Positions 1-47,918 of a stretch of DNA of 64,000 bases are shown one piece after another. Below the pieces are notes generated by a model. It saw nothing but the letters and a program-made list of their open reading frames with translations, did not search any database and was not told the DNA's origin. Numbering within the stretch: the stretch's first letter is position 1; every line of letters starts with the position of its first letter. Position numbers and translations under genes: made by a program. The DNA is from Halostella limicola (GTDB lineage: Archaea > Halobacteriota > Halobacteria > Halobacteriales > Natronoarchaeaceae): assembly GCF_003675875.1 (NCBI RefSeq), contig NZ_RCDI01000003.1, forward strand, positions 310,001-374,000. The letters are read 5' to 3'.

Positions 1-1644
1 CGCCGCCTCCGACGGGTCCGTCGCCTTGAGGACCGTGACCGGACCGCCGTGGGCCTGCGCGTGGAAGAACAGGTCGCCGGGTTCGAGGTACTTCTTGACG
101 AGTTCCTCGTTCTGGTCGGCGTCGCGCCCGCCGATCACGAGGAAGTCGTCGCTCGTGTAGAACCAGCGGAACCGCTCGAACCACTGTTCGGACCGGCGGA
201 CCGGGATCGACGGACGGGAGAGCCAGTCGACGTCTTCCGTCTCCCCGTCCTCGTCATCGTCGTTCCCGCTTTCGGGACCGTCCTCTTCCCACTGGCGCTT
301 GCGCTCTTTCACCTCCTCCAGTTCCTCGCGGGTGTCCTCGATGGCCGCCAGCGCGCCCTCCTTTTTCTCCTCGACGCGCTTGGCCTCGGTGTAGAGGCGG
401 TCGGCGTTGTGCTCGACGCCCTCGCTCGCGTCGAGTTCGACGTCCGTGCCGTCGAGCCGAACCGTCACGGTCCCCTCGTCGCCGTTCACGCCGACGACGG
501 CCTCCGCAGCCTCGATGCCGCGCTCGGCGCCCTCCTCGAAGCGCTCCTCGATCTCGTCCCACGGCGTGTCCCGCTCGCGGGCGTCCTGGATCGTCGAGAG
601 CACGTCGTCGACCAGCTCGTAGCGCTCGTACAGCAGTTCCGCGCGCTCGCGCTCCTGCTCGGCCTGCCGCTCGAACCCCTCGATGGCCTGCTCCTGCTGC
701 TCGATGATGCGCTCTTTCTTCTCGATCTCGCCCGCGAAGTCCGGCGAGTCGTCGGTGACCGCGTCGTCCTCGTCGTCGGAGCGGTCGAGCTCGTGGAAGT
801 ACTCGTCCAGCGCGGCGTTGAACGTGTCGTAGGACTCGCTCTCCAGGTCCTCGTGCTCCGAAAGCGGGAACGGCGTCACGTCGACGTACCGGTCGCCCTC
901 GACGTAGATCCGGGGGTCGAGTTCGGCGTTCTCCATCTCGTCGCGGAGGCGCTCTAGCGCGTCGAACACGACCTCGTACTGCTCCTCGGTGGCGTCGGCG
1001 ATGTCGGTCGCCTTCTCGACGCCGGCGCGGGTGCAGACCTCCTCCGCGTAGAGGCCGCCGAGGTTCAGCTGGGTCGCCAGCGTCCGCACGATGTCGGTGT
1101 CGGAGTCGTCCATCAGCGCCGCGAACCCCTCGTAGTCGACGTCGAGGGGGTTCACGCGCGTGTCCGGGAACTCGTACTGCGACCCCGGCGCCACGGTGCG
1201 GGACTTCAGCCGGACGGTGTCCAGCGAGTCAACCACCTCGTCGTTGCCGTCGAGGACGGCGATGTTGCCCGGGCCGAACAGCTCCGCGATGATCGTCGTG
1301 TCCTCGTCCTCGCGTTCGAAGTGGAACTGGAGGATCCGGTCGAACTCGAACTGCTCCACGCCCGCGAAGTCGGCCCCCGACAGGCGGTTCCGGAGCATCA
1401 TCGCGAAGTTCGGCGGCCGCCCCGGCGCGTCCGGGACGTTCTCGGGGGCCGCCACGTGCGCGCGTTTCACGTCGCCGACTTCCACCAACAGCTCCACCCG
1501 CCCGCGGTCGAAGTCGCGCATCTTGAGCCGCAGGAAATCGTCGCCGTAGAGGTAGGCCTTGTCGAGTTTGGCCCCCTCGTAACTGCCGAGTTCGCCGACG
1601 AGCGCCGCGAGGTCGACGCTCGTCAGTTCCCGCTTCTGGTCCAT
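1..1644 (-). CDS. rqcH: Rqc2/NEMF-family ribosome rescue factor (RqcH-like), C-terminus cut by window edge
   Basis: The protein matches the NFACT/NEMF family (FbpA-like N-terminal domain, long central coiled coil, then NFACT-R/DUF814 domain). The family binds stalled large ribosomal subunits and peptidyl-tRNA and, in bacteria and archaea, recruits tRNA-Ala for tailing. Visible marks are RPPNFAMMLRNRLSGA about residues 80-95, the conserved Asp-Arg in FDRILQF shortly after, an Asp/Glu-rich coiled coil, and the NFACT-R signature DDFLVIGGRDADQNE followed by LEPGDLFFHAQAHGGP close to the window edge. The start MDQKRELTSVDLAAL is typical of the family. The last residues lie beyond base 1. Identification is firm; the tailing function is inferred from homologues. 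Confidence 0.9.
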   Translation of the reverse strand, partial: MDQKRELTSVDLAALVGELGSYEGAKLDKAYLYGDDFLRLKMRDFDRGRVELLVEVGDVKRAHVAAPENVPDAPGRPPNFAMMLRNRLSGADFAGVEQFEFDRILQFHFEREDEDTTIIAELFGPGNIAVLDGNDEVVDSLDTVRLKSRTVAPGSQYEFPDTRVNPLDVDYEGFAALMDDSDTDIVRTLATQLNLGGLYAEEVCTRAGVEKATDIADATEEQYEVVFDALERLRDEMENAELDPRIYVEGDRYVDVTPFPLSEHEDLESESYDTFNAALDEYFHELDRSDDEDDAVTDDSPDFAGEIEKKERIIEQQEQAIEGFERQAEQERERAELLYERYELVDDVLSTIQDARERDTPWDEIEERFEEGAERGIEAAEAVVGVNGDEGTVTVRLDGTDVELDASEGVEHNADRLYTEAKRVEEKKEGALAAIEDTREELEEVKERKRQWEEDGPESGNDDDEDGETEDVDWLSRPSIPVRRSEQWFERFRWFYTSDDFLVIGGRDADQNEELVKKYLEPGDLFFHAQAHGGPVTVLKATDPSEAA

Positions 1645-1712
1645 ACGGGATCGGTCTGCTCGCCGGCAGAAAGGCGTGTCGCTACGCCTCGCTGGCGGTC
1701 GCCGGCGCGGAT

Positions 1713-3023
1713 CTACAGTTCGTCGAGCGAGTTCGCAGCGTTGATCCTGCCCGCGCCGAGGTCCGGGTCGCTCTGGCCGTCCACCAGTTCCGCCCCATCC
1801 TTGATCGCCTGCTCCACCTGATTCGCGTTCAGGCCCGAGTCCGCGGCGCGGATCAGACCCGCGAGGCCTGTCACCTGCGGCGCGGCCATCGACGTGCCGG
1901 CGAAGTAGGCGTAGTAGTCGCCATCGTACAGTTCGGGCGGCACCGACGACAGCACGAGATTCGTGGGGAACGGCCACTCGGTATCGTCCGCGAGCGTCTT
2001 CTCCAGCGTCTCGTACCCGCCGCCCGGCGCGCCGACGTCTATCTCGTTGGTGCCGTAGTTCGAGTAGAACACCCGCTCGTCGTTCGGGCCGGTCGCGCTG
2101 ACGCTCATCGCCCCGGCGACGCTGTTCGGGACGGTGAAGTACCCGCCCTGCTGCAGGTTCGCGTCGGAGTTGCCGGCGCTGACGACCACGAGCGTCCCCC
2201 GGCGGACGGCGTCCTGTGCCACGCGCTGGTAGGCGACCTTGATGCCGGTGGCGTTGGTCTCCGGCGGCAGCGGCGGCGTCCCGATGCTGAGGTTCGCGGC
2301 GTCGGCGTCGAGCGACGCCGCGTGGTCGATGGCCGTGAGGATGTCGGCGGTAGTGGTGGTGAGTTCCTGATCGCCGTCACCGTCTACGTCGTCGTAGTAG
2401 AACACGCGAAGCGACACCAGCTCCGCGTCCGGTGCGGTGCCGACGATGCCCGTAGTTCCCTCGTCCGAGGCCGCTGCGATACCGGCGACGTGAGTGCCGT
2501 GCCCGTGGACGTCTTCCGCGTCACTCGTTACTTCACCGTATCTGAACAGTCGACTCACTTCTGCGTTGACATTATCTTTGAGATCGGGGTGATCGAAGTC
2601 GATCCCGGTGTCGATGATAGCCAGACGTGTTCCTTCGCCCGCTGTCGTTTCGTGCGCTTCCGCCACATCGGTGACTTGCTTGTCCCACTGCAGCGGATAG
2701 CGATCTTCGTCAGTGGTGGTATCAGCTTGTTCCACGCGTTCAGGGCCCTCGAACTCGAACCGAACGTCGCGGGCCACTTCGCTCACGCCCTCGACCGCGT
2801 CGAGGTCGTCTCGGTCGTCTTCTGACCCGACCACGACGTACACCGATCCGTCTGCGAGTTCCTGCCGTACCGCGAAGCCGGCGTCTTCGATCCCCCGACG
2901 TACGTCTCCGTCCGCGACGACGAGGAACGTCGCGTCGTCTTGCGCGCCGACGAGGCCGGTGAACGCGAGCGATAGGCCGCTGGCGGCGATTCCCTTGATG
3001 AAGTCTCGTCTTTGAATTGTCAT
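1713..3023 (-). CDS. Tat-exported subtilisin-family serine protease (S8, halolysin-like)
   Basis: Extracellular subtilase of 436 residues. The N-terminus QRRDFIKGIAASGLSLAF is a twin-arginine signal peptide, so the enzyme is exported folded, as usual for haloarchaeal proteases. A propeptide-like I9 region spans about residues 30-95. The catalytic triad is D138 (IIDTGID), H175 (HGHGTHVAG) and S378 (AGTSMAAP), with oxyanion Asn N285 (SAGNSD). The protein ends soon after the catalytic domain, with no C-terminal PKD or prepeptidase extension. The upstream region has an AT-rich TATA-like stretch near 3070-3090, roughly 55 bases before the start, implying a short 5' UTR. Substrates are not predictable. 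Confidence 0.92.
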   Translation of the reverse strand: MTIQRRDFIKGIAASGLSLAFTGLVGAQDDATFLVVADGDVRRGIEDAGFAVRQELADGSVYVVVGSEDDRDDLDAVEGVSEVARDVRFEFEGPERVEQADTTTDEDRYPLQWDKQVTDVAEAHETTAGEGTRLAIIDTGIDFDHPDLKDNVNAEVSRLFRYGEVTSDAEDVHGHGTHVAGIAAASDEGTTGIVGTAPDAELVSLRVFYYDDVDGDGDQELTTTTADILTAIDHAASLDADAANLSIGTPPLPPETNATGIKVAYQRVAQDAVRRGTLVVVSAGNSDANLQQGGYFTVPNSVAGAMSVSATGPNDERVFYSNYGTNEIDVGAPGGGYETLEKTLADDTEWPFPTNLVLSSVPPELYDGDYYAYFAGTSMAAPQVTGLAGLIRAADSGLNANQVEQAIKDGAELVDGQSDPDLGAGRINAANSLDEL

Positions 3024-3180
3024 GGTAGTCAGCCTCTCCCGCGAGAGACAGGCGGGGGTGCCACGTCACGAATAAAAATATTAATTATTAGAGTTAGTCA
3101 TCTAACATTCTCTCCCTGTGAGTCGAAATTGGTTCGGCCTGTAGAGCGGCGGAGAGGACTCCAAACGCCGTGCCGTTGCC

Positions 3181-3190
3181 CTTTTTATCT
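3181..3190 (+). promoter_or_regulatory. TATA-like box A of the ZIP transporter gene
   Basis: The sequence CTTTTTATCT lies 22-31 bases before the ATG at 3212. This is the box A to start-site distance expected in haloarchaea, so the transcript is probably leaderless. It argues against the more upstream in-frame ATG at 3170, which lies before the box. Confidence 0.55.
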
Positions 3191-3211
3191 GTGGCTATCG
3201 TTGCCGCACTC

Positions 3212-4033
3212 ATGTCGACGCTCGGCGAAGTGGTCGTGGTCGCGGTTCTGGCCGGGAGCGCGACCGGTATCGGCGCGTTGCCCGTCCTCGTCACGTCCCG
3301 GATCAGCCACAAAATGTACGACTCGGCGCTCGGGTTCGCGGCGGGGATCATGTTCGGCGCGGCGGTGTTCACGCTCGTCATCCCCGGCCTCGAGATCGGG
3401 TCGATGTCGGAGGTGCTCGCCGGGCTGGGCATCGGGGGGCTGTTCCTGCTCGCCGCGAACCGCCTCGTGCCCCACATCCACCTGCTGTTCGACCGGGAGC
3501 GTGGGGAGGGCCGGGGGACGGACGCGACGCCGATGGACGCGGAGGCGGTCGTCGACGTCCCGAAAGACCCCGACGTGGACGACAAGATACGGAAGGCGAT
3601 CCTCGTCGGGAGCGCGATCACCATCCACAACATCCCGGAGGGGCTGGCGGTCGGCATCGCGTTCGCGAGCGGACAGGAGGGCATCGGCTTCGCCATCGCA
3701 AGCGCCATCGCCGTCCAGAACGTCCCCGACGGCTTCGCGATGGCGGTGCCGGCCAACCAAGCCGGGGTCTCGAAGCTCAAGACGGTGTTCTACACGACGC
3801 TGTCGGGCGGGATCCCGGAACCGATCGCGGCGATCGTCGGCTTCCTGCTCGTCGAGTTCGTCGTGGACGCCTTCCCGCTCGCGGCGGGCGTCGCCGCGGG
3901 CGCGATGATGGCCGTGATCTTCCGCGAGATGATCCCCGAGAGCCACGCCCACGGCTACGCCGACGCGGCGACGCTCACCTTCATCGCCGGGTTCGCCGTG
4001 ATGACGTTCATCGACACGACGTTCACGGTGTGA
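3212..4033 (+). CDS. ZIP-family divalent metal transporter
   Basis: A 273-residue membrane protein of the ZIP (ZRT/IRT-like) family, importing zinc or another divalent cation into the cytoplasm. About eight hydrophobic segments are visible. The family signature in the fourth and fifth helices is present: HNIPEGLAVGIAFASG, followed by VQNVPDGFAMAVP, with His/Asn/Glu metal ligands. A further conserved stretch, SGGIPEPIAAIVG, follows, and FREMIPESHAHG lies near the end. A variable acidic loop (GRGTDATPMDAEAVVDV) replaces the His-rich loop of some homologues. The start at MSTLGEV is chosen because box A lies just upstream. Confidence 0.88.
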   Translation: MSTLGEVVVVAVLAGSATGIGALPVLVTSRISHKMYDSALGFAAGIMFGAAVFTLVIPGLEIGSMSEVLAGLGIGGLFLLAANRLVPHIHLLFDRERGEGRGTDATPMDAEAVVDVPKDPDVDDKIRKAILVGSAITIHNIPEGLAVGIAFASGQEGIGFAIASAIAVQNVPDGFAMAVPANQAGVSKLKTVFYTTLSGGIPEPIAAIVGFLLVEFVVDAFPLAAGVAAGAMMAVIFREMIPESHAHGYADAATLTFIAGFAVMTFIDTTFTV

Positions 4034-35367: not shown

Positions 35368-36351
35368 TCAGTCGCCGGAGCCGTCGGCTTCCGCCTCCGC
35401 CGTCTCTCGACGGCCGGCCTCGACGCGTTCTCGCCGCTCCGCTTCGATGCGCTCCATGCGGTGCATCTGCTCGCGGTGCAGCGACACGATCATGTCCGAG
35501 AGGACGCCGAAGATGAGCAACTGGACGCCGAACAGCAGGAAGAACGCGGAGACGACGGCGATCACCTCGTGGCTCACGCTCCGCGTGAACCACTCGACGC
35601 CGACGTAGGCGGCGAGGACGCCGCCGACGAGGAGGCCGGTCGCCCCGACGCTGCCGAAGTAAAACAGCGGGTTGTTCGTCTTCGCGAGGCGGTACAGCGT
35701 CAGGATGATCGTCCCGCCGTCCCAGAGTGGGTGGAGGTTCGTCTCGGACGACTCCGGCCGGGCCAGATAGGTGATCGGCACCTCAGTCATCTCGATACCG
35801 TTTTTCACGCACTCGACGGCGAGTTCCGTCTCGATGCCGAACCCTTCCGACTCCAGCCGGAGTCGGCTCACCGAGTCGCGGGTGAACGCACGGTAGCCGC
35901 TCAGGATGTCGTAGCGCTCCTCGCCGTGGATGTAGTGGAACGCGCGGTCGATGATCCCGTTGCCGAACTGGTTGAGGCGGGTCATCGCCCCCTCCTCCAT
36001 GTCGGCGAACCGGTTGCCGATGACGTGTTCGGCCTCGCCCGAGAGCAGCGGTTCGAGCATCGTCGGCGCGTCTTCCGGGCGGTACGTGCCGTCCCCGTCG
36101 AGCATCAGCACGTACTCGCTGTCGACGTAGCCCATCGCCTCCTGGATCGCCTGTCCCTTCCCGGACCCCGACTGGACGACGACGCGAGCGCCGCGCTCCT
36201 CGGCGATCTCGCGCGTGCCGTCGGTTGAGTTGCCGTCGACGACGAGAATGTCGTCGAGCCCCTGCTCGCGGAACCCGTCGATCACCTCACCGATGGTCGC
36301 CGCCTCGTTCAGCGTCGGGATCAGGACGCAGACGTCCCGGTAGTCCGCCAT
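35368..36351 (-). CDS. aglJ: Dolichyl-phosphate hexosyltransferase AglJ (GT2)
   Basis: A 327-residue GT2 enzyme that puts the first sugar on dolichyl phosphate in haloarchaeal N-glycosylation. VCVLIPTLNEAATIGEV opens the GT-A domain. LVVDGNSTDGT, then MLDGDGTYRPEDAP (DxD motif), then NRFADMEEGAMTRLNQFGN are DPM/AglJ-like. Two membrane helices (about 235-260 and 268-295) anchor it, followed by a charged Arg/Glu tail. The ATG at 36351 (MADYRDV) is preferred over a GTG five codons up. It is 12 kb from aglB, as in Haloferax-like genomes where aglJ lies at the far end of the cluster. Confidence 0.88.
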   Translation of the reverse strand: MADYRDVCVLIPTLNEAATIGEVIDGFREQGLDDILVVDGNSTDGTREIAEERGARVVVQSGSGKGQAIQEAMGYVDSEYVLMLDGDGTYRPEDAPTMLEPLLSGEAEHVIGNRFADMEEGAMTRLNQFGNGIIDRAFHYIHGEERYDILSGYRAFTRDSVSRLRLESEGFGIETELAVECVKNGIEMTEVPITYLARPESSETNLHPLWDGGTIILTLYRLAKTNNPLFYFGSVGATGLLVGGVLAAYVGVEWFTRSVSHEVIAVVSAFFLLFGVQLLIFGVLSDMIVSLHREQMHRMERIEAERRERVEAGRRETAEAEADGSGD

Positions 36352-36452
36352 TGCCGTGAACTCCACGGCAGAGGCGCAAAAGGTTTGCTTTCACGGCCGC
36401 CGCGAACGCTCCGCTCGCCCGGACTGTGCCGTCGCAGATGACCGCGACGGCG

Positions 36453-37144: not shown

Positions 37145-37279
37145 TCAGTCGTCGGCTTGCTCCCGCTGCTCGCTCAGATGCTCCCAAATCTCGGTACACC
37201 CGCAACCGTCAGCGACGTCGCTGACGTGGTCGTCGACCCTGCACGCTTCCGATTCGTCTTCGGGTGTACCGTCGGACAT
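37145..37279 (-). CDS. 44-residue Cys-containing acidic protein under a TrmB-type palindrome
   Basis: The protein reads MSDGTPEDESEACRVDDHVS then DVADGCGCTEIWEHLSEQRE and QADD. Cysteines at 13, 26 and 28 (C-X12-C-X-C) and His18 could hold a metal ion or a disulfide. It is divergent from trmB. Its ATG is separated by one base from the GTTACTCA-N5-TGAGTAAC palindrome, and a TATA-like GCCTTATTTC (minus strand, 37316-37326) lies upstream. The same arrangement heads the sugar operon, so expression probably follows the same signal. No function is known. Confidence 0.65.
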   Translation of the reverse strand: MSDGTPEDESEACRVDDHVSDVADGCGCTEIWEHLSEQREQADD

Positions 37280-37280
37280 A

Positions 37281-37301
37281 GTTACTCAGTTCGTGAGTAA
37301 C
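37281..37301. promoter_or_regulatory. TrmB-type operator, copy 1
   Basis: Perfect palindrome GTTACTCA-GTTCG-TGAGTAAC. It contains TACT-N8-GAGTA, the pattern reported for haloarchaeal TrmB. It sits between the TATA-like box and the ATG of the 44-residue gene, and 76 bases before trmB, so TrmB may also control its own gene. Confidence 0.8.
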
Positions 37302-37376
37302 CGATCGGACCCGCTCGAAATAAGGCTTTGGGTGGAGGCGCGTGTTTTACGGTATCGGGGCCGAAACCCGCCAGCA

Positions 37377-38225
37377 ATGAGCGCGCGCGACCCGTCAGAG
37401 CTCCTCGAACGGCTCGACCTGAAGGAGTACGAGGCGACGGCACTGACCCACCTGCTGTCGGCCGGCCGGACGACGGCGCCGGACATCTCGGAGGCGACGG
37501 GGATCCCCAAGGCGCGGATCTACGGCGTGCTGGACTCGCTCGCCGACCTCGGTTACATCAAGGTGTACCCGGGCCGGCCGAAGGAGTACCAGCCGAAGTC
37601 GCCCGCGGCGATCCTGGAGCGAGTCAAGGAGAACCGGCGACAGGAGTACGAGCAGTTCCGAAAGGAGATCGAGGACATGCGCGAGGAGTTCCTCTCGGAG
37701 TTCCAGCCGCGCTACGAGCAGGCCGGGGAGGACCTCTCGCCGACGGCGGAGCTGTTCTACGTCGTCGACGTCGGCGAGCCGAGCGAGTCCGAGACCCGCC
37801 AGCTGTACGCCTCCGCCGAGGAGCACGTCCACGTCATCACGAACAGCTTCGAGTACTTCGACGGGGTCGAACCGGCGTTCAGCGACGCCGTCGACCGGGT
37901 CGACGTGGACGTGCTCTTCCTCCACCCGCGACACCTCCCGGAGGAGAAACGGGAGAAGCAGGCGGCGATCGTCGACCGCCTGATCGACGAGTACCCGTCG
38001 GTCGGCGTCCGCTTCTCGGAGGAGCGGCTCCCCTGGCGCGGGACGTTTGTCGACCCGAGCATGGAGTACGACTCCGGCAAGGCCATCTTCCTCGTCGAAG
38101 AGCGCGACGTGCCGAACCACAAGCGACAGGCCGCCATCACGGAGAACGGCTCGTTCGTCGCCGGCATGAAGCGCTACTTCGACCTCGTCTGGGAGTACGA
38201 GAGCGCGGACGAGTACCCGCGGTGA
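37377..38225 (+). CDS. TrmB-family transcriptional regulator
   Basis: A 282-residue regulator. Residues 1-75 form the TrmB winged helix (LLERLDLKEYEATALTHLLS, DISEATGIPKARIYGVLDSL). A coiled linker (ERVKENRRQEYEQFRKEIED) and a C-terminal ligand-type domain (HVHVITNSFEYFDGVE, ERDVPNHKRQAAITENGSF) follow. TrmB proteins sense sugars and act as repressor or activator. The gene lies between two identical-arm palindromes and just before a sugar-nucleotide operon. The ATG at 37377 has a TATA-like GTTTTACG about 30 bases upstream. Direct orthology to the glycolysis regulator is not shown. Confidence 0.9.
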   Translation: MSARDPSELLERLDLKEYEATALTHLLSAGRTTAPDISEATGIPKARIYGVLDSLADLGYIKVYPGRPKEYQPKSPAAILERVKENRRQEYEQFRKEIEDMREEFLSEFQPRYEQAGEDLSPTAELFYVVDVGEPSESETRQLYASAEEHVHVITNSFEYFDGVEPAFSDAVDRVDVDVLFLHPRHLPEEKREKQAAIVDRLIDEYPSVGVRFSEERLPWRGTFVDPSMEYDSGKAIFLVEERDVPNHKRQAAITENGSFVAGMKRYFDLVWEYESADEYPR

Positions 38226-38362
38226 GCGGGACCGGGTCGGGCGACGCGCGCTGAGCCGCTATTTCCGGGTCGAACGCGTTCCGACGGCCACCTCATCCCG
38301 TAGCGTCGACTACCGCCGTCTTCCCGGCCTATCAGCGCGGCGACGAAAGGCTTATGCCGGTA

Positions 38363-38383
38363 GTTACTCACCTTCTGAGTAAC
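38363..38383. promoter_or_regulatory. TrmB-type operator, copy 2
   Basis: Palindrome GTTACTCA-CCTTC-TGAGTAAC, with the same arms, the same spacer length and the same one-base distance to an ATG (38385) as copy 1. It follows a TATA-like GGCTTATGCC (38349-38358) by a few bases, so a bound regulator would block initiation of the operon. Confidence 0.82.
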
Positions 38384-38384
38384 T

Positions 38385-39524
38385 ATGACGGTACTCGTCA
38401 CCGGTGCCGACGGCTACGTCGGCTGGCCGACCGCTCTCAGACTGGCGCGACGACTCGATGAGCGGGTCGTCGGCGTGGACAACCTCGCGCGGCGCGACTG
38501 GGTGGAGGACGCGGGGAGCGTCTCCGCCGTCCCCGTCCACGACCCCGAGCGGCGCTTCGACGCGGAGCCGAACCTGAGCTTCGTCTACGCGAACCTCGCC
38601 GACCGCGACGAGGTGACGCGACTGCTCGACGTCCACGAACCCCACACGGTCGTCCACGCGGCGGCCCAGCCGAGCGCCCCCTACTCCCAGATCAACGGGG
38701 AGCGCGCGCTGTACACCCAGCGCAACAACGTGTCGATGAACGTCAACCTGCTCCACGGCCTGAAGGAGGCCGGTCTGGAGGACGCGCACTTCATCGAGAC
38801 GACGACGACCGGCGTCTACGGCGCGCCCCAGTTCCCCATCCCTGAAGGCGGGTCGACGATGGAGAACCAGGGCGAGTCTGACGACGTGCCGTTCCCCGCG
38901 ATGGGCGGCTCCTGGTACCACGTCACCAAGTCCTTCGACAACGCGAACGCGCGGCTGGCCGCCAAGCAGTGGGGCCAGCCCGTCAGCGACGTCCGCACCG
39001 CCATCGTCTACGGTACGGAGACAGAGGAGACCGAGGAGACGGAGCTACCGACGCGGTTCGACTTCGACTACTACTTCGGCACCGTCGTCAACCGCTTCTG
39101 CGCGCAGGCGGTCGCGGGCTACCCGCTGACCGTCTACGGGAAGGGCGAGCAGCGCAAGCCGATGGTCGGCCTCCGCGACACCGTCGAGAGCCTCGCCACG
39201 CTGGTCGAGCGCGGCCGGGACGACGCTGGCGTCGAGGTGTACAACCAGGTCACCCGCCCCGTCGCCATCGTCGAACTCGCCGAGACCATCCAGGAGGTCG
39301 GCGAGGAGTTCGACCTCGACGTCGAGATCACCCACGTCGAGAACCCGCGCGAGGAGGACGAGGAACACAAGATGGAGATGGAGAACGAGAAGTACGAGGA
39401 CCTGGTCGGCGAGCCGCAGTCCCTCGAGGCGGGCATCCGGGACGTGCTGACGACGCTGACCCGCCACAGCGACCGCATCACCGCCCACGAGGACCGGTTC
39501 CTGCCGGAGGTGTTGCTCGATTAA
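38385..39524 (+). CDS. SQD1-like UDP-sulfoquinovose synthase family protein
   Basis: A 379-residue short-chain dehydrogenase of the SQD1 type, which makes UDP-sulfoquinovose from UDP-glucose and sulfite. GADGYVGWPTALRLARRLDE is the NAD loop. VHAAAQPSAPYSQING and ALYTQRNNVSMNVNLLHGLK match SQD1, as do TTTTGVYGAP, the catalytic WYHVTKSFDN (YxxxK), VYGTETEETEETELPTRFDF and FGTVVNRFCAQAVAGYPLTV. It is the first gene of an operon ending in glmS. SQD1-like enzymes in archaea (Agl3) act in N-glycan synthesis. The substrate here is inferred. Confidence 0.88.
   Translation: MTVLVTGADGYVGWPTALRLARRLDERVVGVDNLARRDWVEDAGSVSAVPVHDPERRFDAEPNLSFVYANLADRDEVTRLLDVHEPHTVVHAAAQPSAPYSQINGERALYTQRNNVSMNVNLLHGLKEAGLEDAHFIETTTTGVYGAPQFPIPEGGSTMENQGESDDVPFPAMGGSWYHVTKSFDNANARLAAKQWGQPVSDVRTAIVYGTETEETEETELPTRFDFDYYFGTVVNRFCAQAVAGYPLTVYGKGEQRKPMVGLRDTVESLATLVERGRDDAGVEVYNQVTRPVAIVELAETIQEVGEEFDLDVEITHVENPREEDEEHKMEMENEKYEDLVGEPQSLEAGIRDVLTTLTRHSDRITAHEDRFLPEVLLD
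39506..39512 (+). promoter_or_regulatory. Shine-Dalgarno site for the ATT-start epimerase
   Basis: GGAGGTG, seven bases before the ATT at 39520, inside the end of the SQD1-like gene. It is a strong ribosome site for internal initiation and supports the unusual start codon. Confidence 0.7.
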
Positions 39525-40413
39525 CGTTCTGGTCACCGGGGGCGCGGGCTACGTCGGGAGCGCCCTGATCCCGGTGCTCCGCGAGGAGGGCCACGCGGTC
39601 ACCCTCCTCGACGACTTCTCGCTGTCCTCGCCGCGGAACCTGATCGACGCGCCGGCCGTGGAGTTCGTCCGGGGCGACGTCCGCGACGAGGAGCCGGTCC
39701 GGGAGGCGATGGCCGGCGTCGACGCCGTGATCCACCTCGCGGCGGTCACCGGCGCGGCACAGACCCACGACATCCCGGAGCGGACGTTCGACATCAACCT
39801 CGGCGGGACGGCGACCGTCCTCGCGGCCGCGGAGGACGCGGGCGTCGAGCGCGTGGTGCTCGCCAGCTCGTGCAACGTGTACGGCGAGACCTACGAGACG
39901 GACCTGACGGAGTCGTCCCCGACGGACCCGGGCAACCCGTACGCCGAGTCCAAACTCGCCGCCGAGGAGGCCTGCTTCGACGCGGACGTGGAGACGGTCG
40001 CGCTCCGGCTGGCGACCAACTACGGCTGGAGCCCCGGCGTCCGGTTCAACCTCGTCGTCAACTCGTTCGTGTTCCGGGCGGTCATGGACGAGCCCCTGAC
40101 CGTCTACGGCGACGGGTCGAACTGGCGGCCGTTCCTGCACGTCCAGGACACCGCCCGCGCGTTCGCCGCCGCGCTCGACTGGCCCGAGGGCGTGTACAAC
40201 GTCGGCGAGGGGAACTACCGCATCGAGGAGATCGCCGCGGCCGTCTCCGACGTGGTCGGCACGCCCGTCGAGACGGACTACCTCGAAGAGGAGAACCCCG
40301 GGCCGTCCTACAGCGTGACGTTCGACCGGATGGCGAACCGCGAGTTCGCACCCGAGTACGGCCTCCACGACGGCATCCGCGACCTGAAACGACGATTCGA
40401 TCACGATGGATGA
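39520..40413 (+). CDS. NAD-dependent epimerase/dehydratase with ATT start
   Basis: A 297-residue extended SDR enzyme acting on nucleotide sugars. The start region reads INVLVTGGAGYVGSALIPVL, where the first codon is ATT (39520-39522). It overlaps the TAA stop of the preceding gene exactly as an ATGA overlap would, and a GGAGGTG site lies seven bases upstream. No ATG, GTG or TTG exists before codon 19 in this frame, and that later GTG would cut off the Rossmann loop. Catalytic NPYAESK and RLATNYGWSPGVRFN are present. The reaction (4-epimerase versus 4,6-dehydratase) is undefined. Confidence 0.82.
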   Translation: MNVLVTGGAGYVGSALIPVLREEGHAVTLLDDFSLSSPRNLIDAPAVEFVRGDVRDEEPVREAMAGVDAVIHLAAVTGAAQTHDIPERTFDINLGGTATVLAAAEDAGVERVVLASSCNVYGETYETDLTESSPTDPGNPYAESKLAAEEACFDADVETVALRLATNYGWSPGVRFNLVVNSFVFRAVMDEPLTVYGDGSNWRPFLHVQDTARAFAAALDWPEGVYNVGEGNYRIEEIAAAVSDVVGTPVETDYLEEENPGPSYSVTFDRMANREFAPEYGLHDGIRDLKRRFDHDG

Positions 40414-40479: not shown

Positions 40480-41424
40480 ATGACAGAAACGTACACCGTA
40501 GGCGTGACCGGAGCGGCCGGCTACATCGGCTCCCGCGTCGCCAAGATCCTCCAGGGCGACGGCCACGAGGTGGTCCCCGTCGACGACTTCTCCGAGGGGT
40601 CCGTCGAGGAGATCGACGGCCGCGCGGTCGAGGCGGTCGACGTCCGCGACCGCGACGCCCTCCGGGAGGCCCTCTCCGGCGTCGACGCCGTGATGCACCT
40701 GGCCGCGATAAGCGGCGTGCCGGACTGCGAGGACGATCCCGAGCACGCGTTCGACGTGAACGTCGGCGGCACGGAGAACGCCGCCTGGCTCTGTCGGGAG
40801 TGGGGCGTCCCGCTCGTGTTCCCCTGTAGCATGGCGACCGTCGGCGACCCCGTCGAGTTCCCTATCTCGGCCGACCACCCGCGACAGCCGCTCAACTTCT
40901 ACGGCCGTAGCAAGGCGCTCTCGGAGGACGACGTGCACCAGCTCGCGGCGGGTGAGTTCCCCGCGCACGTGTACATCAAGTCCAACCTCTACGGCCACCA
41001 CGAGCTGGGCGGGCAGACGATCGGCAAGAACACCGTGATCAACATCTTCGTCGACAAGGCGCTGAACGAGGAGCCGCTGACCGTCCACGAGCCCGGGACG
41101 CAGGCGCGGGACTTCATCCACGTGAAGGACGTCGCCCGCGCGTACGCGCTCTCGCTCGACGAACTCGTCGGGAGCGACCCCGGCGCGACGACGTTCACCC
41201 TGGCGAGCGGCGACGACCGGAGCGTGCTCGACATCGCGGAGGTCGTTCAGGAGACCGTCGCCGATGAGCGCGGCTACGAAGTGCCGATCGAGATGGTCGA
41301 GAACCCGCGCGAGAGCGAGACGGAGGTGAGCGACTTCACCGTCGACACGTCGGAGGCCGCCGAGGAGATCGGCTTCGAGCCGGAGTACGACATCGAGCGC
41401 GCGGTCAGGGAGATGGTACGATGA
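40480..41424 (+). CDS. NAD-dependent nucleotide-sugar epimerase/dehydratase
   Basis: A 314-residue extended SDR protein, TVGVTGAAGYIGSRVAKILQ at the start, with YGRSKALSEDD (YxxxK) and KSNLYGHHELGGQTIGKNT. The FIHVKDVARAYALSLDEL stretch is the sugar-binding side. It lies 66 bases after the previous epimerase and overlaps the next gene by four bases. Paired SDR genes often run dehydration and reduction steps in turn; the actual sugar is unknown. Confidence 0.87.
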   Translation: MTETYTVGVTGAAGYIGSRVAKILQGDGHEVVPVDDFSEGSVEEIDGRAVEAVDVRDRDALREALSGVDAVMHLAAISGVPDCEDDPEHAFDVNVGGTENAAWLCREWGVPLVFPCSMATVGDPVEFPISADHPRQPLNFYGRSKALSEDDVHQLAAGEFPAHVYIKSNLYGHHELGGQTIGKNTVINIFVDKALNEEPLTVHEPGTQARDFIHVKDVARAYALSLDELVGSDPGATTFTLASGDDRSVLDIAEVVQETVADERGYEVPIEMVENPRESETEVSDFTVDTSEAAEEIGFEPEYDIERAVREMVR

Positions 41425-42638
41425 AGGCCGTCGTCGTCGCCGCCGGCGAGGGGACGCGGATGCGCCCGCTGACCGCCGAGCGGCCCAAGCCGATGCTCCC
41501 GGTCGCCGGGACGCCGATGCTCGAACGCGTGATGAGCGCCTGTGAGGGGGTCGTCGACGGCTACGTGCTCGTCGTCGGCTACCGCGCCGACGCCATCCGC
41601 GAGCACGTCGGCGAGTCGTTTCGCGGGCTCCCCGTCGACTACGTCGAGCAGGAGGAGCAACTGGGCACGGCCCACGCCATCGGGCGCGCCGAGGCGCACG
41701 TCGACGAGCGCTTCCTCGCGCTGAACGGCGACGTGGTCTTCGACCCCGAGCTCGTCGAACAGCTCGCCGAGACGGGGACGACCGCCATCGCGACGATGCG
41801 GGTCGACGACCCCACGTCGTACGGCGTGGTCGGAACGGACGACGCCGGCGACGGCCGCCCGAGCGCGACGAGCATCGTCGAGAAGCCGGACGACCCGCCG
41901 TCGAACCTCGCCAACCTCGGCCTCTACGCGTTCGATCCGGTGATCTTCGACTACATCGAGCGCACCGGGATGAGCCAGCGCGGCGAGTACGAGATAACGG
42001 AGTCGCTGGAGATGCTGCTCGACGACGACCACCCGGTCGCCGTCGTCGAACACGACGGCCGCTGGCTGGACGTCGGTCGCCCGTGGGAACTGTTAGACGC
42101 CACGGAGGCCGAACTGGAGGGGCTGGAGCCCCGAATCGAGGGCGAGGTCGAGGAGCGGGCGACGCTGAAAGGGTCCGTCGTGGTCGAGGCGGGCGCGCGC
42201 GTCCGCAACGGCGCGTACGTCGAGGGCCCGGCGGTCATCCAGTCCGGCGCGGACGTAGGCCCGAACGCCTACGTGCGCGGCGCGTCGGTGATCGGTCCGG
42301 ACGTCCGGATCGGCAACGCCGTCGAGGTGAAGAACTCGATCATGATGGAGGGGGCCTCCGCGGGCCACCTCTCGTACGTCGGCGACTCCGTGATCGGCCG
42401 CGACGCGAACCTCGGTGCCGGCACCACGGTGGCGAACCTCCGTCACGACGACGCGAACGTGGCGATGGACGTGAAAGGCGAGCGCGTCGACACCGGCCGC
42501 CGGAAGCTCGGCGTCGTCCTCGCCGACGGCGTGAAGACGGGCATCAACACCAGCCTCAACGCCGGCACGAAGCTCGGCGCCGGGGCCATGACGCGTCCCG
42601 GGGAGAGCGTGATGGAAGACAGGGGTGAGTCGCTATGA
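41421..42638 (+). CDS. Bifunctional sugar-1-phosphate nucleotidyltransferase with left-handed beta-helix (GlmU-like)
   Basis: A 405-residue protein. The N-terminal GT-A domain has AAGEGTRMRPLTAERPKPML (signature) and LALNGDVVFDPELV. The C-terminal hexapeptide repeats (VVEAGARVRNGAYVEGPAVI, ADVGPNAYVRGASVIGPDVR) form an acetyltransferase-like helix. By analogy with archaeal proteins it could make UDP-GlcNAc or UDP-glucose from sugar phosphates. Translation is coupled by ATGA overlaps on both sides. Confidence 0.88.
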   Translation: MKAVVVAAGEGTRMRPLTAERPKPMLPVAGTPMLERVMSACEGVVDGYVLVVGYRADAIREHVGESFRGLPVDYVEQEEQLGTAHAIGRAEAHVDERFLALNGDVVFDPELVEQLAETGTTAIATMRVDDPTSYGVVGTDDAGDGRPSATSIVEKPDDPPSNLANLGLYAFDPVIFDYIERTGMSQRGEYEITESLEMLLDDDHPVAVVEHDGRWLDVGRPWELLDATEAELEGLEPRIEGEVEERATLKGSVVVEAGARVRNGAYVEGPAVIQSGADVGPNAYVRGASVIGPDVRIGNAVEVKNSIMMEGASAGHLSYVGDSVIGRDANLGAGTTVANLRHDDANVAMDVKGERVDTGRRKLGVVLADGVKTGINTSLNAGTKLGAGAMTRPGESVMEDRGESL

Positions 42639-43801
42639 AGGCCGTCATCCTGGCGGCCGGCGAGGGCCAGCGGCTCGAACCGCTGACGAACCGCCGCCCC
42701 AAGCCGATGGTGCCGATCGCGAACCAGCCGCTGCTGGAGTACGTCATCGACTCCGTCTCCGACGCCGGGATCGACGAGATCGTCCTCGTCGTCGGCTACA
42801 AGCGCGAGCGGATCCAGACGTACTTCGGCGACGGCCACCGCTGGGGCGTCGACATCGAGTACGCGGTCCAGGAGAAACAGCTCGGCACCGGTCACGCCGT
42901 CCTGCAGGCCGAGGACTACGTCGACGACGAGTTCCTCGTGCTCAACGGCGACCGGATCATCACCGCGGACCTGGTCGAGCAACTGGTCGAGACCCGCTCG
43001 GAGACGAGCGAGACGGTGATGGCAGTCACCCGCGCCGACGACCCGACGGAGTACGGCGTCGTCACGCTCGACGGCGACCGCGTCACCGGGATCACTGAGA
43101 AGCCGCGGGCGCCGGCCGCGCCGTCGGACATCGTCAACGCCGGCGTGTACGCCTTCGACCAGTCCGTGTTCGACGCCATCCGCGAGATCGAACCCAATCC
43201 CGCGGGCGAGCTCGCGCTGACCGCGGCCATCGAGCGCCATCTGGACGACGAACCCGTCCGGGCAGCGCGGTACCGCGGCCTCTGGGTCGACGTCTCCTAC
43301 CTCTGGGACGTCACTGCGGTCACCGCCCAGGTACTCGACGAGCTCGACGACCCGATCCAGAACGGCGTCGTCGACGAGGGGGCGCGGGTCGCCGACGACG
43401 TCCGGATCGGCTCCGACACGCGCGTCGGCGCGAACGCGACGATCCGCCGCGGGACCGCGCTCGGGAACAACGTCACCGTCGGCGCGAACGCCGTCCTGTC
43501 GAACGTCGTCGCCTTCGACGACGCGACGATCGGCGACGGCGCCGTCCTGCGTGACTGCATCGTCGCCGAGAACGCGACGGTCGGGCCGAACACCACGGTG
43601 CCCGGCGGGCCGGCGGACGTGGTCGTCGACGACACCTACTGCGAGTCGGTCGATCTAGGCGCGGTCGTCGGCGACAACGCGTCGGTCGGCGGCGGGTCCG
43701 TCCTCGTGGGCGGCACCATCATCGGCGACGGCGCGACGGTACAGGACGGGGTGACCGTCTCGGGACGCGTCCCGACGGACGCGGAGGTGCGGAGGGGATA
43801 A
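42635..43801 (+). CDS. Second GlmU-like sugar nucleotidyltransferase
   Basis: A 388-residue paralogue of the previous gene. AAGEGQRLEPLTNRRPKPMV opens the catalytic domain and GDRIITADLVEQLVETRSE follows. The beta-helix part (DDVRIGSDTRVGANATIRRG) is longer in turns and ends TVSGRVPTDAEVRRG. Two adjacent enzymes may use different sugar-1-phosphates, for example glucose and glucosamine/N-acetylglucosamine. A ribosome site is near (GGGGTGAG). Confidence 0.88.
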   Translation: MKAVILAAGEGQRLEPLTNRRPKPMVPIANQPLLEYVIDSVSDAGIDEIVLVVGYKRERIQTYFGDGHRWGVDIEYAVQEKQLGTGHAVLQAEDYVDDEFLVLNGDRIITADLVEQLVETRSETSETVMAVTRADDPTEYGVVTLDGDRVTGITEKPRAPAAPSDIVNAGVYAFDQSVFDAIREIEPNPAGELALTAAIERHLDDEPVRAARYRGLWVDVSYLWDVTAVTAQVLDELDDPIQNGVVDEGARVADDVRIGSDTRVGANATIRRGTALGNNVTVGANAVLSNVVAFDDATIGDGAVLRDCIVAENATVGPNTTVPGGPADVVVDDTYCESVDLGAVVGDNASVGGGSVLVGGTIIGDGATVQDGVTVSGRVPTDAEVRRG

Positions 43802-43803
43802 CC

Positions 43804-45600
43804 ATGTGTGGAATCATCGGCTACATCGGCACGAAATCGCCGCTCTCGGTTGTCGCGACGGGGCTGAAGAACCTGGAGTACCGCGGCTACGACTCCGCGG
43901 GCATCGCGCTGAACAACGGCGGCATCGAGGTGTACAAACAGGAGGGCGAGATCGACGACCTCGAACTCCCCGAATCGTCGGACGCGACCTGCGGGATCGG
44001 CCACACCCGCTGGTCGACCCACGGCAAGCCGACCGACGCGAACGCGCACCCGCACACCGACTGCTCGGGCCGGATCGCCGTCGTCCACAACGGGATCATC
44101 GAGAACTACGACGCCCTCAAGGACGAGCTCTCCGACCACGAGTTTACCAGCGAGACGGACACGGAGGTCATCCCACACCTCCTCGAAGAGGCGTACGACG
44201 GCGACGACCTCGTCGGGGCGGTGCAGGCCATCCTCCCACGGCTGGAGGGGAGTTACGCCTTCGCGGTGACCGCCGCCGGCCACGACGGCATGGTCGCCGC
44301 GCGGATGGACAGCCCGCTGGTCGTCGGCCGCGGCGAGGACGGCAACTTCGTCGCCAGCGACGTGACGGCGTTTCTCGAACACACCCGCGAGGTGTCGTAC
44401 CTGGAGGACGGCGACGTCGTCTCCGTCACCGCAGACGGCGTCACCGTCTACGACGCCGAGGGGGTCGTCGACCGGGCGGTCCAGACCGTCGACTGGGAGG
44501 CCGACGCCGCCGAGAAGGGCGGCTACGACCACTACATGCTCAAGGAGATCCACGAGCAGCCCCGGTCGCTCCGCCAGACCCTGTCCGGGCGCGTCGACGC
44601 GGTCGAGGGCGACGTCGACCTGGACCTCGACATGCCCGAGCAGTACCTCCAGTCAGTCACGGAGATACAGATCGTCGCCTGCGGCACGTCCTACCACGCC
44701 GGCCTCTACGCGCAGCAGCTGATCGAGGAGCTCGCGAACGTCCGCGTCTCCGTCCACGTCGCCAGCGAGTACGAGTTCAACGGGGGCCGCGACCCGTGGC
44801 GAACGCTCGTGATGGCCGTCACGCAGAGCGGCGAGACGGCGGACACGCTCTCGGCGATGCGCGAGGCGGCCCGCGCCGGCGCGCGGACGCTCGCGGTCAC
44901 GAACACCGTCGGGAGCACGGCCGCCCGCGAGGCCGACGACGTGGTCTACATCCGCGCCGGCCCGGAGATCGGCGTCGCCGCGACGAAGACGTTCGCGGCG
45001 CAGGTGACGACGCTCTCGCTGCTGTCCGTCTACCTCGGCCGCGAGCGGGGCAAGCTGTCGGCCGACGAGGCGAGCGAACTGCTCGAGAACGCCCGGGGCC
45101 TCCCGGGGGCGATCCAACAGATACTGGACGTCGAGGACGAGATCAAGGCGGTCGCCGAGGAGTACGTCGACGGCGACGCCTTCTTCTTCATCGGCCGGAA
45201 GCTCGGCTGCCCGGTCGCGCTGGAGGGGGCGCTCAAGCTGAAGGAAATCTCCTACGCCCATGCCGAGGGGTTCGCCGCCGGCGAACTGAAACACGGCACC
45301 CTCGCGCTGGTGACGCCCGAGACGCCGGTGCTCGCCGTCCTCACCGAGGGCGCGAACCCGCAGGCGACGCTCAACAACGTGAAGGAGGTCGAGTCCCGCG
45401 GCGCGCCGGTGATCGGCGTCACCTCGCACGACCCCGCGGAGAAGTTCCTCGACGCCAGCTTCGAGGTTCCCGACCTGGGCCGCCTCGAACCGCTGCTGGC
45501 GAACATCTACCTGCAGCTGTTCGCCTACCACGTCGCGAAGCTGAAGGGCCGCTCCATCGACAAGCCGCGGAACCTTGCGAAGAGCGTTACCGTCGAGTAG
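43804..45600 (+). CDS. glmS: Glutamine-fructose-6-phosphate aminotransferase
   Basis: A 598-residue enzyme making glucosamine-6-phosphate, the entry to amino sugars. The glutaminase domain begins with nucleophile C2 (MCGIIGYIGTKSPL) and has RGYDSAGIAL, GHTRWSTHGKPTDANAHPHT. Two SIS domains follow (VACGTSYHAGLYAQQLIEEL; LGCPVALEGALKLKEISYAH). The C-terminus LKGRSIDKPRNLAKSVTVE is diagnostic. It closes the TrmB-controlled operon, two bases after the second nucleotidyltransferase, with a GGAGGGG-type ribosome site. Confidence 0.97.
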   Translation: MCGIIGYIGTKSPLSVVATGLKNLEYRGYDSAGIALNNGGIEVYKQEGEIDDLELPESSDATCGIGHTRWSTHGKPTDANAHPHTDCSGRIAVVHNGIIENYDALKDELSDHEFTSETDTEVIPHLLEEAYDGDDLVGAVQAILPRLEGSYAFAVTAAGHDGMVAARMDSPLVVGRGEDGNFVASDVTAFLEHTREVSYLEDGDVVSVTADGVTVYDAEGVVDRAVQTVDWEADAAEKGGYDHYMLKEIHEQPRSLRQTLSGRVDAVEGDVDLDLDMPEQYLQSVTEIQIVACGTSYHAGLYAQQLIEELANVRVSVHVASEYEFNGGRDPWRTLVMAVTQSGETADTLSAMREAARAGARTLAVTNTVGSTAAREADDVVYIRAGPEIGVAATKTFAAQVTTLSLLSVYLGRERGKLSADEASELLENARGLPGAIQQILDVEDEIKAVAEEYVDGDAFFFIGRKLGCPVALEGALKLKEISYAHAEGFAAGELKHGTLALVTPETPVLAVLTEGANPQATLNNVKEVESRGAPVIGVTSHDPAEKFLDASFEVPDLGRLEPLLANIYLQLFAYHVAKLKGRSIDKPRNLAKSVTVE

Positions 45601-45654: not shown

Positions 45655-46938
45655 CTACCAGGTCAGCCCCTCGTACGCGTCGAGCGCGTCCGTATCCACG
45701 TCGATCCGGCGGCCGTCGATCAGCACCTTCCGGGCCATCCCCGAGAAGTCGAGGTCAGCGAACTCCGGCCACTCGGTCGCGACCATCGCGGCGTCGGCCC
45801 CGTCGAGCGCCGCCTCGGCGGACGCGGCGTAGCGCACGTCGGGGTACTTCTCGCGGGCGTTCTCCGTGGCGACGGGGTCGTACGCGACGACGTCCGCGCC
45901 GCGTTCTTGCAGGTGGCCGATGAGGTCCATCGCCCGGGACCCGCGGACGTCGTCGGTGCCGGGTTTGAACGCGACGCCGAGGACCGCGACGCGGGCGCCC
46001 TCGGGATCGACGTGTCCCGCCAGCAGGTCCACCATCCGTCGGGGCTGGAGGTCGTTGACCGAGACGACGGCGTTCAGCAGTTCGGGTTCGTACCCCTGTT
46101 TCCGCGCGAGCGCGCGGACGGCGTCGACGTCTTTCGGGAAGCAGGAGCCACCCCAGCCGAGGCCGGACCGGAGGAACTTCGCCGAGATGCGGTCGTCGAG
46201 GCCGACGGCGTCGAACACCTCGTAGGCGTCCACGTCGAGATCCTTGCAGACGTTGCCGAGTTCGTTCACCAGCGACACCTTCGACGCGAGCATCGTGTTG
46301 TTGGCGTACTTGATCATCTCGGCCTCGCGCAGGCCGGTGTCGACCACCGTCGTCCGCTCGCGCAGGTCGGCGTAGAGGTCCCGCAGCAGGTCTCGAACCC
46401 ACTCCTGTTCGGACCCGACGACGATCTTGTCCGGATGGAGGAAGTCCTCGACCGCGGTGCTCATCCGGAGGAACTCGGGGTTCATTCCGAGACCGAGGTC
46501 CTCCCCGACGGTCTTGCCGGACGCCCGCTCGACGGCGGGGCCGATCACTTCGTCAGTCGTCCCCGGCACGACTGTGCTCTTGGTGACGACGGCGTGGCGC
46601 CCGGCTTTGTCGCCCAGCGCGTCGCCCAGCGCCTCCGCGCCGGCCTCCATCACCGCGAGGTCGATGCTGCCGTCCTCCTGGGAGGGCGTCGGCAGGCACA
46701 GCAGCGTGAGGTCGCTGTCGACCACCGCGCCGTAGTCGGTCGTCGCGCGCAGTCGATCGCCGGCGTTGCGCTCGATCCGCTCCTGCAGCCCTTCCTCGTG
46801 GATCGGCGCTTCTCCGTCGTTGATCGTCCCCACGACCTCCTCGTCGATGTCGACGTTCACCACCTCGTGACCGAGGTCGGCGAGGCAGGCGGCCACGGTC
46901 GTCCCGACGTAGCCGCTGCCGACGATCGAGACGTTCAC
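45655..46938 (-). CDS. aglM: UDP-glucose 6-dehydrogenase (AglM)
   Basis: A 427-residue dehydrogenase oxidising UDP-glucose to UDP-glucuronate, supplying hexuronic acid for the haloarchaeal N-glycan. The NAD loop is VSIVGSGYVGTTVAACLADL. KSTVVPGTTDEVIG and NPEFLRMSTAVEDFLHPDKI are family motifs, and GWGGSCFPKDVDAVRALA holds the catalytic Cys. The GTG at 46938 overlaps the upstream epimerase stop (GTGA). This is better than a GTG nine codons further up. Confidence 0.92.
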   Translation of the reverse strand: MNVSIVGSGYVGTTVAACLADLGHEVVNVDIDEEVVGTINDGEAPIHEEGLQERIERNAGDRLRATTDYGAVVDSDLTLLCLPTPSQEDGSIDLAVMEAGAEALGDALGDKAGRHAVVTKSTVVPGTTDEVIGPAVERASGKTVGEDLGLGMNPEFLRMSTAVEDFLHPDKIVVGSEQEWVRDLLRDLYADLRERTTVVDTGLREAEMIKYANNTMLASKVSLVNELGNVCKDLDVDAYEVFDAVGLDDRISAKFLRSGLGWGGSCFPKDVDAVRALARKQGYEPELLNAVVSVNDLQPRRMVDLLAGHVDPEGARVAVLGVAFKPGTDDVRGSRAMDLIGHLQERGADVVAYDPVATENAREKYPDVRYAASAEAALDGADAAMVATEWPEFADLDFSGMARKVLIDGRRIDVDTDALDAYEGLTW

Positions 46939-47918
46939 GACTCGATCACCAGCGGTTCGTACCACTCGCGGTTCTCGACGTACCAGTCGACGAAGCGGGA
47001 GACGCCGTCCCGGATACTCACGCTCGGTTCGTAATCGAGGAGTTCGCTGGCTTTCGTCACGTCGGCGTGTGTGTGTCGCGCGTCGGCCTCGTTCGGCTCC
47101 GTGTACTCGATGTCGACGTCGGCCCCCGTCTCGGCGACGATGTGCTCCGCGAGTTCCTGGATAGTGATGTTCCCGCTGGACCCGACGTTTATCGCCTCGC
47201 CGTCGGCCGCGTCGGTATCGAGCAGCGCGAGGTTCGCGTCGACGATGTCGTCGACGTACGTGAAGTCCCGCGTCTGCTGACCGTCGCCGTAGATGATCGG
47301 TGGCTCCCCGTTGAGACAGCGCGACGTGAAGTTCGTGATCGCCATGTTGGGCCGCATCCGGGGCCCGTAAACGGTGAAGTGGCGCAGGCTTACCGTCGCG
47401 ACGTCGTGGAGATTGTCCCAGACGCGACAGTAGTGTTCGGAGGCGAGCTTCGTGATCGCGTAGGGGCTCTGCGGATAGTTCGCATGGTCCTCGTCGTACG
47501 GCAGGTAGTCGTCTTTCCCGTACACCGACGACGAGGAGGCGTTCACGACTCGACGGACGCCGTGGTCGGCCGACGCTTCGAGGACGTTCAGCAGGCCGCC
47601 GACGTTGTTCTTGTTGTACGCGTGCGGGTTCTCGACGCTCGTGCGGACGCCCGCCTTCGCCGCCTCGTGGTAGACGAACTCAACGTCGTCGTCCGCCACG
47701 ATGCTACGGACCAGTTCCTCGTCCGTGATCGATCCCTCGACGAACCGGAACCGGTCGCCGCCGGTGTCGCGACACCGCTCGAGGTTGCGCTCCTTAATCC
47801 GGACGTCGTAGTACGGATCGAGGTTGTCGAGTACCGTTACTCGGTGACCGTCCGACAGCAGTCGCTCGGCGATGTGTGAGCCGATGAAACCCGCACCGCC
47901 TGTCACGAGAACGTTCAT
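46935..47918 (-). CDS. NAD-dependent UDP-sugar 4-epimerase
   Basis: A 327-residue extended SDR enzyme of the GalE/UDP-glucuronate 4-epimerase type. VLVTGGAGFIGSHIAERLLS, then SSSVYGKDDYLPYDED and SPYAITKLASEHYCR (catalytic YxxxK), then TVYGPRMRPNMAITNFTSR. The sequence DYEPSVSIRDGVSRFVDWYV is the usual tail. Being translated together with aglM suggests it converts UDP-GlcA to UDP-GalA or works on UDP-glucose/galactose. It lies 54 bases after aglF. Confidence 0.9.
   Translation of the reverse strand: MNVLVTGGAGFIGSHIAERLLSDGHRVTVLDNLDPYYDVRIKERNLERCRDTGGDRFRFVEGSITDEELVRSIVADDDVEFVYHEAAKAGVRTSVENPHAYNKNNVGGLLNVLEASADHGVRRVVNASSSSVYGKDDYLPYDEDHANYPQSPYAITKLASEHYCRVWDNLHDVATVSLRHFTVYGPRMRPNMAITNFTSRCLNGEPPIIYGDGQQTRDFTYVDDIVDANLALLDTDAADGEAINVGSSGNITIQELAEHIVAETGADVDIEYTEPNEADARHTHADVTKASELLDYEPSVSIRDGVSRFVDWYVENREWYEPLVIES

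Follow-up and report, generated by a model that had tools for sequence, protein, structure and literature searches.

Two copies of one palindrome lie on either side of a gene for a TrmB-family protein, and each copy adjoins a start codon. Which protein acts at these sites, and what does it control? A first-pass annotation of the locus proposed that the TrmB encoded between the palindromes represses both adjoining transcripts, linking the supply of glycan precursors to sugar status. We examined this proposal in the whole 64-kb stretch of DNA (the window), in the genome to which it belongs and across the Halobacteria.

The observation itself was confirmed as a whole. The pair GTTACTCA-N5-TGAGTAAC occurs in the window as two exact matches (Table 1), each one base from an ATG. 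One copy faces a 44-aa ORF on the minus strand (p44) and the other faces a six-gene operon, and TATA-like stretches (CTTATTT and CTTATG, respectively) lie upstream of both. The half-site agrees with the published TACT-N7-8-GAGTA motif (PMC4158304).

Table 1. Features of the locus, in window positions
Feature	Position	Strand	Basis and remarks
p44, 44-aa microprotein	37145..37279	-	29-sequence alignment; core HLxDVxDGxGCTEIWExLSExR
Operator 1, GTTACTCAGTTCGTGAGTAAC	37281..37301	none	Exact match; covers predicted start of 44-aa gene
TATA-like box of p44, CTTATTT	about 37318..37324	-	Read from sequence; about 42 nt from p44 ATG
Short TrmB-family regulator, 282 aa	37377..38225	+	PF01978, structure model; winged helix, long helix, PLD-like C-terminal domain
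TATA-like box of operon, CTTATG	38351..38356	+	Read from sequence; about 32 nt from operon ATG
Operator 2, GTTACTCACCTTCTGAGTAAC	38363..38383	none	Exact match; covers predicted start of sulfosugar operon
Gene 1 (sqd), haloarchaeal UDP-sulfoquinovose-synthase-like SDR enzyme	38385..39524	+	NF041015; SQD1 (1qrr) E 3.9e-73
Gene 2, NAD-dependent epimerase/dehydratase (GalE-like)	39523..40413	+	PF01370 182.5 bits; start codon uncertain, ATTAAC over gene 1 stop
Gene 3, NAD-dependent epimerase/dehydratase (GalE-like)	40480..41424	+	PF01370 147.6 bits
Gene 4, archaeal GlmU-type sugar-1-phosphate nucleotidylyltransferase/acetyltransferase	41421..42638	+	TIGR03992 543.8 bits, above cut-off
Gene 5, second GlmU-like nucleotidylyltransferase	42635..43801	+	TIGR03992 306.1 bits, above cut-off
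Gene 6, GlmS, glutamine--fructose-6-phosphate transaminase	43804..45600	+	TIGR01135 769.8 bits, above cut-off

A search of the window at up to three mismatches returned these two matches and no other, compared to 0.02 expected from shuffles, and none of 100 shuffled windows contained two palindromes. A scan of the entire genome (4.12 Mb, 9 contigs), which had been proposed as a check on random occurrence, found the exact palindrome at these two sites only, and a reversed-pattern control found none. There were no further palindromes elsewhere in the 4.12-Mb genome at up to two mismatches. At up to three mismatches, two extra sites appeared compared to five in the reversed control, which is chance level; on this basis, we rejected a large regulon. 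We also rejected chance as the origin of the palindromes, based on the window shuffles and genome scans and on the cross-genome site counts and upstream shuffles described below.

The sequence difference between the two window copies is confined to the 5-bp spacer. Aligned promoters of relatives refined the operator to GTTACTC-N7-GAGTAAC, in which the 7-bp arms are fixed, the spacer is variable and the arm nearer the start codon is kept slightly better. By this phylogenetic footprint, the palindromes are real operators.

The 282-aa protein encoded between the operators contains the TrmB winged-helix DNA-binding domain (PF01978, residues 10-76, 66.1 bits compared to a gathering score of 25.6), and this part of the annotated identity stands. 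The protein is not, however, the haloarchaeal TrmB ortholog. It scored 40.8 bits against NF047392, the haloarchaeal TrmB equivalog (about 349 aa, cut-off 500), over residues 8-85 only, and a Pfam profile search revealed that the TrmB sugar-binding domain (PF11495) is absent. The genome's true TrmB, which scored 621 bits, is a separate gene at C4:242475-243518, some 67 kb before the window begins. From the profile score, the existence of this second gene and the co-occurrence of genes across genomes, we rejected identity with haloarchaeal TrmB. By sequence comparison, the protein appears to be a paralog.

An AlphaFold model of the regulator (mean pLDDT 88.4, pTM 0.56) consists of a winged helix, a long helix and a C-terminal domain, and its best matches in the PDB were, in order, TrmBL2, TrmB and PLD-fold proteins. 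Since TM-scores against TrmBL2 were just 0.39-0.43 (on the query), it is uncertain how the domains are arranged. In the model, the C-terminal part is PLD-like and its fold weakly matches 2f5t, the sugar-binding structure of TrmB (E 9.7e-5). The recognition helix can be aligned with that of TrmB (GIPKARIYGVLDSL compared to GIPYNRVYDTISSL), and a tyrosine within it is invariant in 41 sequences. On our reading of the alignment, this residue would correspond to TrmB Tyr50, which contacts DNA (PMC4158304).

Among characterized proteins, TrmBL2 of Pyrococcus/Thermococcus (5bpd, 5bqt) provided the best PDB matches by both sequence and fold, and is similar in length (264 aa) and layout, with no sugar-binding subdomain. 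As a chromatin protein, TrmBL2 binds both coding and intergenic DNA, whereas the window regulator has one sharp palindromic operator. The TrmB of the same genera resembles it in another way, as it is a local repressor that adjoins its operon and acts through a palindromic promoter operator, TACT-N3-AGTA at malE (PMC4158304). The spacer between TACT and AGTA is 3 there but 9 here, the targets here are sulfosugar genes, and the sugar-contact residues of that TrmB (305-326) lie past the end of the window protein. Haloarchaeal TrmB (VNG1451C of Hbt. salinarum, HAH_1548 of Har. hispanica) shares the winged-helix domain and the TACT/AGTA half-site of the published motif (PMC4158304); it differs in length, in profile score and in having PF11495, and it controls a global regulon, whereas the window regulator has two genomic sites. 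OxsR of Hfx. volcanii, a single-domain family member, likewise has no sugar-binding domain, and the position of its site relative to TATA sets the sign of regulation (PMC9426492). However, OxsR works through a cysteine and its motif is CG-rich, while the window protein contains no cysteine and has a different motif.

To follow the regulator, operator and sqd (gene 1 of the operon) across the class, we surveyed 292 Halobacteria genomes, drawn evenly from it, with thresholds of E<=1e-50 for the regulator, E<=1e-60 for sqd and E<=1e-100 for TrmB. The regulator was present in 100 genomes and sqd in 112. Both occurred together in 99, sqd alone in 13, the regulator alone in one and neither in 179 (Fisher p about 4e-62, which is overstated since the genomes are related and thus are not independent observations). 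When the DNA upstream of every regulator and sqd gene in the survey was taken (165 stretches), the operator, at up to three mismatches, was found at the start of sqd in 99/99 genomes with the regulator, compared to 1/13 without it, a group that spans nine genera by our tally. Its distance to the sqd start codon ranges from -1 to 6 nt; among 100 distinct promoters, 53 have a distance of 1 nt and 33 one of 2 nt. Shuffled upstream sequences contained the operator in 2 of 4080 cases. Sites matching the core motif averaged 2.0 per genome with the regulator and 0.23 without, while the reversed control gave 0.12 and 0.14. Thus, the palindromes track the TrmB-family protein encoded between them, which supports this part of the annotation.

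The association does not depend on proximity. Regulator and sqd lie within 12 kb of each other in 52 of the 99 genomes, farther apart on one contig in 26 and on different contigs in 21. Since the operator is still at sqd in the 47 genomes where the two are separated, it follows the gene, not the neighbourhood. A second exact copy was found 1-2 nt before the distant sqd in eight of eight named genomes (L008, L010-L013, L016, L017 and L020), which include Haloarcula and Halorientalis species. Two genomes (G096 and G278) have two regulators and two sqd genes each, with operators at all of these sqd genes.

Some genomes depart from the usual arrangement. In G253, the regulator is present and sqd was not detected. 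In G087 (locus L234), a near-perfect operator lies at sqd and the regulator was not detected, perhaps because of recent loss or divergence of the regulator. In G240 (locus L133), sqd is apparently broken into two pieces, and the regulator and a weak (3-mismatch) operator remain; we counted this as an operator genome, though the inner sqd piece is without an operator. Loci L092-L143 contain two alternative layouts, one in which sqd, two epimerase genes and the regulator form an operon, in that order, and a second in which p44 and sqd diverge from a shared intergenic region that contains two operators.

Could the sugar-sensing TrmB nonetheless bind both palindromes and tie glycan precursors to glucose? 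The site fits TACT-N7-8-GAGTA (PMC4158304), a link between TrmB and S-layer glycosylation has been reported for Hbt. salinarum (PMC4245038) and the genome has a true TrmB gene, as do 249 of the 292 surveyed. We therefore sorted the 112 sqd genomes by both proteins. The operator was present in 78/78 genomes with regulator and TrmB, in 21/21 with the regulator only, in 1/11 with TrmB only and in 0/2 with neither. What argues most strongly against the glucose-sensor reading is that the operator occurs in all genomes that have the short regulator and lack TrmB, and is absent from 10 of the 11 in the reverse situation. In addition, the 15 ChIP peaks tabulated for Har. hispanica TrmB (PMC10817205, Table 2) include no sulfosugar gene, a comparison that crosses species, as the operator is known here from four other Haloarcula/Halomicroarcula genomes. 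We consider binding by TrmB very unlikely, and the annotated link to glucose or sugar status is not supported. Since the operator tracks the short regulator and not TrmB, the glucose experiment proposed as a test is unlikely to be the informative one.

The position of the operators bears on the sign of regulation. TrmB-family sites repress when downstream of TATA and activate when upstream (PMC4158304, PMC10817205, PMC9426492), with HAH_0188 of Har. hispanica as an exception (PMC10817205). With archaeal TATA boxes located around position -26 (PMC10817205), transcription is predicted to start near 37295 from the TATA-like box at about 37321 (minus strand) and near 38379 from that at about 38353 (plus strand), in both cases inside the operator. 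The 71 aligned p44 promoters contain an AT-rich peak 18-22 nt before the operator (centre about 20), and the 100 aligned sqd promoters contain an A/T-enriched stretch about 9-16 nt before it (centre about 13). Because they lie downstream of a TATA-like box and over the predicted start, the operators are likely to mediate repression of both transcripts; this is the placement expected for the steric repression that the annotation predicted. The converse, that the regulator switches sqd and p44 on from an activator site, is quite improbable. Activation is possible for members of the family (PMC4158304), but their activating sites lie upstream of BRE/TATA, whereas both operators here are downstream.

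We also weighed whether the palindromes, which touch or overlap start codons, could be an RNA hairpin or translation element, or a mobile repeat, rather than protein operators. However, the genome contains just two of them, their occurrence across genomes follows that of one DNA-binding protein and their spacer varies while the arms stay fixed. Moreover, as transcription is predicted to begin within the palindrome, the transcript would retain no more than part of a hairpin. We regard this explanation as extremely unlikely.

The model that we favour, and hold to be likely, is that the 282-aa TrmB-family paralog is dedicated to repressing the sulfosugar operon and p44, with the two palindromes as its whole regulon in this genome. 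The anatomy of the sites, their uniqueness and the coupling of regulator, operator and sqd across genomes argue for this model, and from them we infer binding, repression and a ligand. A dimer of the regulator would bind GTTACTC-N7-GAGTAAC and block RNA polymerase, keeping both transcripts repressed, and it would be released by a ligand, probably an intermediate of the pathway that binds to the PLD-like C-terminal domain. The operators lie beside the regulator's own gene and overlap the promoter of the target operon, as for a TrmB-type local repressor, although the sign is inferred. Operator 1, which precedes the regulator start by 75 nt and the TATA-like box of the regulator gene by about 45 nt, may also tune regulator expression. 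Several observations count against the model. The genome encodes twelve TrmB-type HTH proteins, any of which could in principle bind; G087 has an operator without a regulator and G253 a regulator without a detected sqd; the survey genomes are related; and HAH_0188 breaks the position rule (PMC10817205). Further, while the operator (up to three mismatches) lies upstream of 72 of 102 regulator genes, the remaining 30 are without one, with best scores there of 6-8 mismatches, which weakens direct autoregulation as a general feature.

The cluster is flanked by AglJ (35368-36366) and AglM (45655-46965), marking this as a glycan region. Genes 1-3, the core of the operon, match the gene set of a Haloquadratum walsbyi operon with SqdB and two GalE (PMC1544339), for which the available part of that paper describes no regulator or operator. 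Gene 1 scored 350.6 bits against NF041015 over nearly its full length, below the cut-off of 575. It keeps the SDR catalytic Thr and Tyr-x3-Lys (aligned to SQD1 Thr145, Tyr182 and Lys186), and YxxxK was found in 26 of 28 sqd loci, the other two being unscored for want of an anchor motif. Two residues that Agl3 requires, Arg101 and the Glu before Tyr148, are replaced by Pro and Val/Ile/Leu, respectively, in 26/26 scored haloarchaeal sqd loci. Because of these replacements, gene 1 is a candidate UDP-sulfoquinovose synthase only, with its product unproven, and together with the sub-threshold score they weaken a firm naming. The haloarchaeal enzymes, which form the distant cluster IV (PMC4388408), may have a changed mechanism or product.

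At gene 2, there is no ATG, GTG or TTG at the conserved N-terminus (window 39506-39560); the frame opens with ATTAACGT over the gene 1 stop (GATTAA), and the same opening occurs in three relatives (L004, L100 and L114). Gene 2 possibly uses an ATT start coupled to termination.

The second predicted target, p44, has no matches in Pfam or NCBIfam. A divergent p44 gene is present at 71 of the 72 regulator genes with an upstream operator. Where p44 lies beside sqd instead of the regulator (8/52 close loci), it carries its own operator. The p44 start codon either comes 0-1 nt after the operator or falls within its right arm, where ATGAGTAAC encodes Met-Ser-Asn, and one Cys in the core is invariant across the 29 aligned sequences. 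On this comparative evidence, p44 is a real and probably co-regulated microprotein.

Members of the p44 family (E<=1e-3) were detected in 276 of the 292 genomes, and 88 of the 100 genomes with the regulator contain at least two, compared to 26 of the other 192. The universal copies have no operator, as the best sites within about 350 nt had 6-8 mismatches in 20/20 regions. In 16 of 20 regions, the operator-free copy lies beside a shared nitrite/sulfite-reductase-like cluster (two members were confirmed as NIR_SIR), and the best NCBIfam match of the reductase is ferredoxin-nitrite reductase, below cut-off. A nitrite/sulfite-reductase-like gene also lies within 3 kb of the p44 relative in 34 of 55 further genomes, namely those whose non-operator p44 position stood among the matches listed; the 21 without one include, by our tally, eight of nine g11 genomes checked. 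The context of the p44 paralog thus covers 75 of the 276 genomes, made up of these 55 and the 20 regions (19 further genomes and our own). In many Halobacteria families, the p44 relative is about 0.6-1.3 kb from the reductase-like gene, just upstream of a DUF7119 gene. At L287, the reductase-like gene occupies 1447-3234 on the minus strand, with the p44 relative near 4003 on the plus strand.

Since UDP-sulfoquinovose synthase uses sulfite (PMC4388408), the reductase-adjacent p44 relative and the sulfosugar operon share a sulfite theme, which is suggestive, not proof. As a tentative idea that is rather unlikely to hold in full, p44 could represent an undescribed haloarchaeal microprotein family in sulfite chemistry. 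The near-universal copy would work with a sirohaem nitrite/sulfite reductase, and the operator-controlled copy would deliver or gate sulfite for the UDP-sulfoquinovose-synthase-like enzyme. If so, the short TrmB-family protein would respond to sulfite or a sulfosugar and act as the switch that splits sulfite between glycans and cysteine. In the literature searched, we found nothing relevant on a small protein of sulfite reductase.

Together, our results retain the operators, the family of the regulator, the placement of the sites and the motif from the first interpretation, and replace the haloarchaeal TrmB and its glucose link. We found no earlier description of this regulon in a search of open-access literature by title and opening of the abstract, and a joint search for TrmB and sulfoquinovose gave just a review that treats them separately. 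Probably, a small regulator encoded next to the sites switches the sulfur-sugar pathway on and off together with a very small companion protein. For haloarchaeal sulfosugar synthesis, this provides a candidate regulator, an exact operator of 21 bp and a predicted regulon that is complete with two operators, all open to testing in about 100 sequenced species. As the switch is distinct from TrmB, conclusions from published glucose experiments should not be extended to it. Finally, the reductase-adjacent relative of p44 makes a previously unannotated family of 30-45-aa proteins testable.
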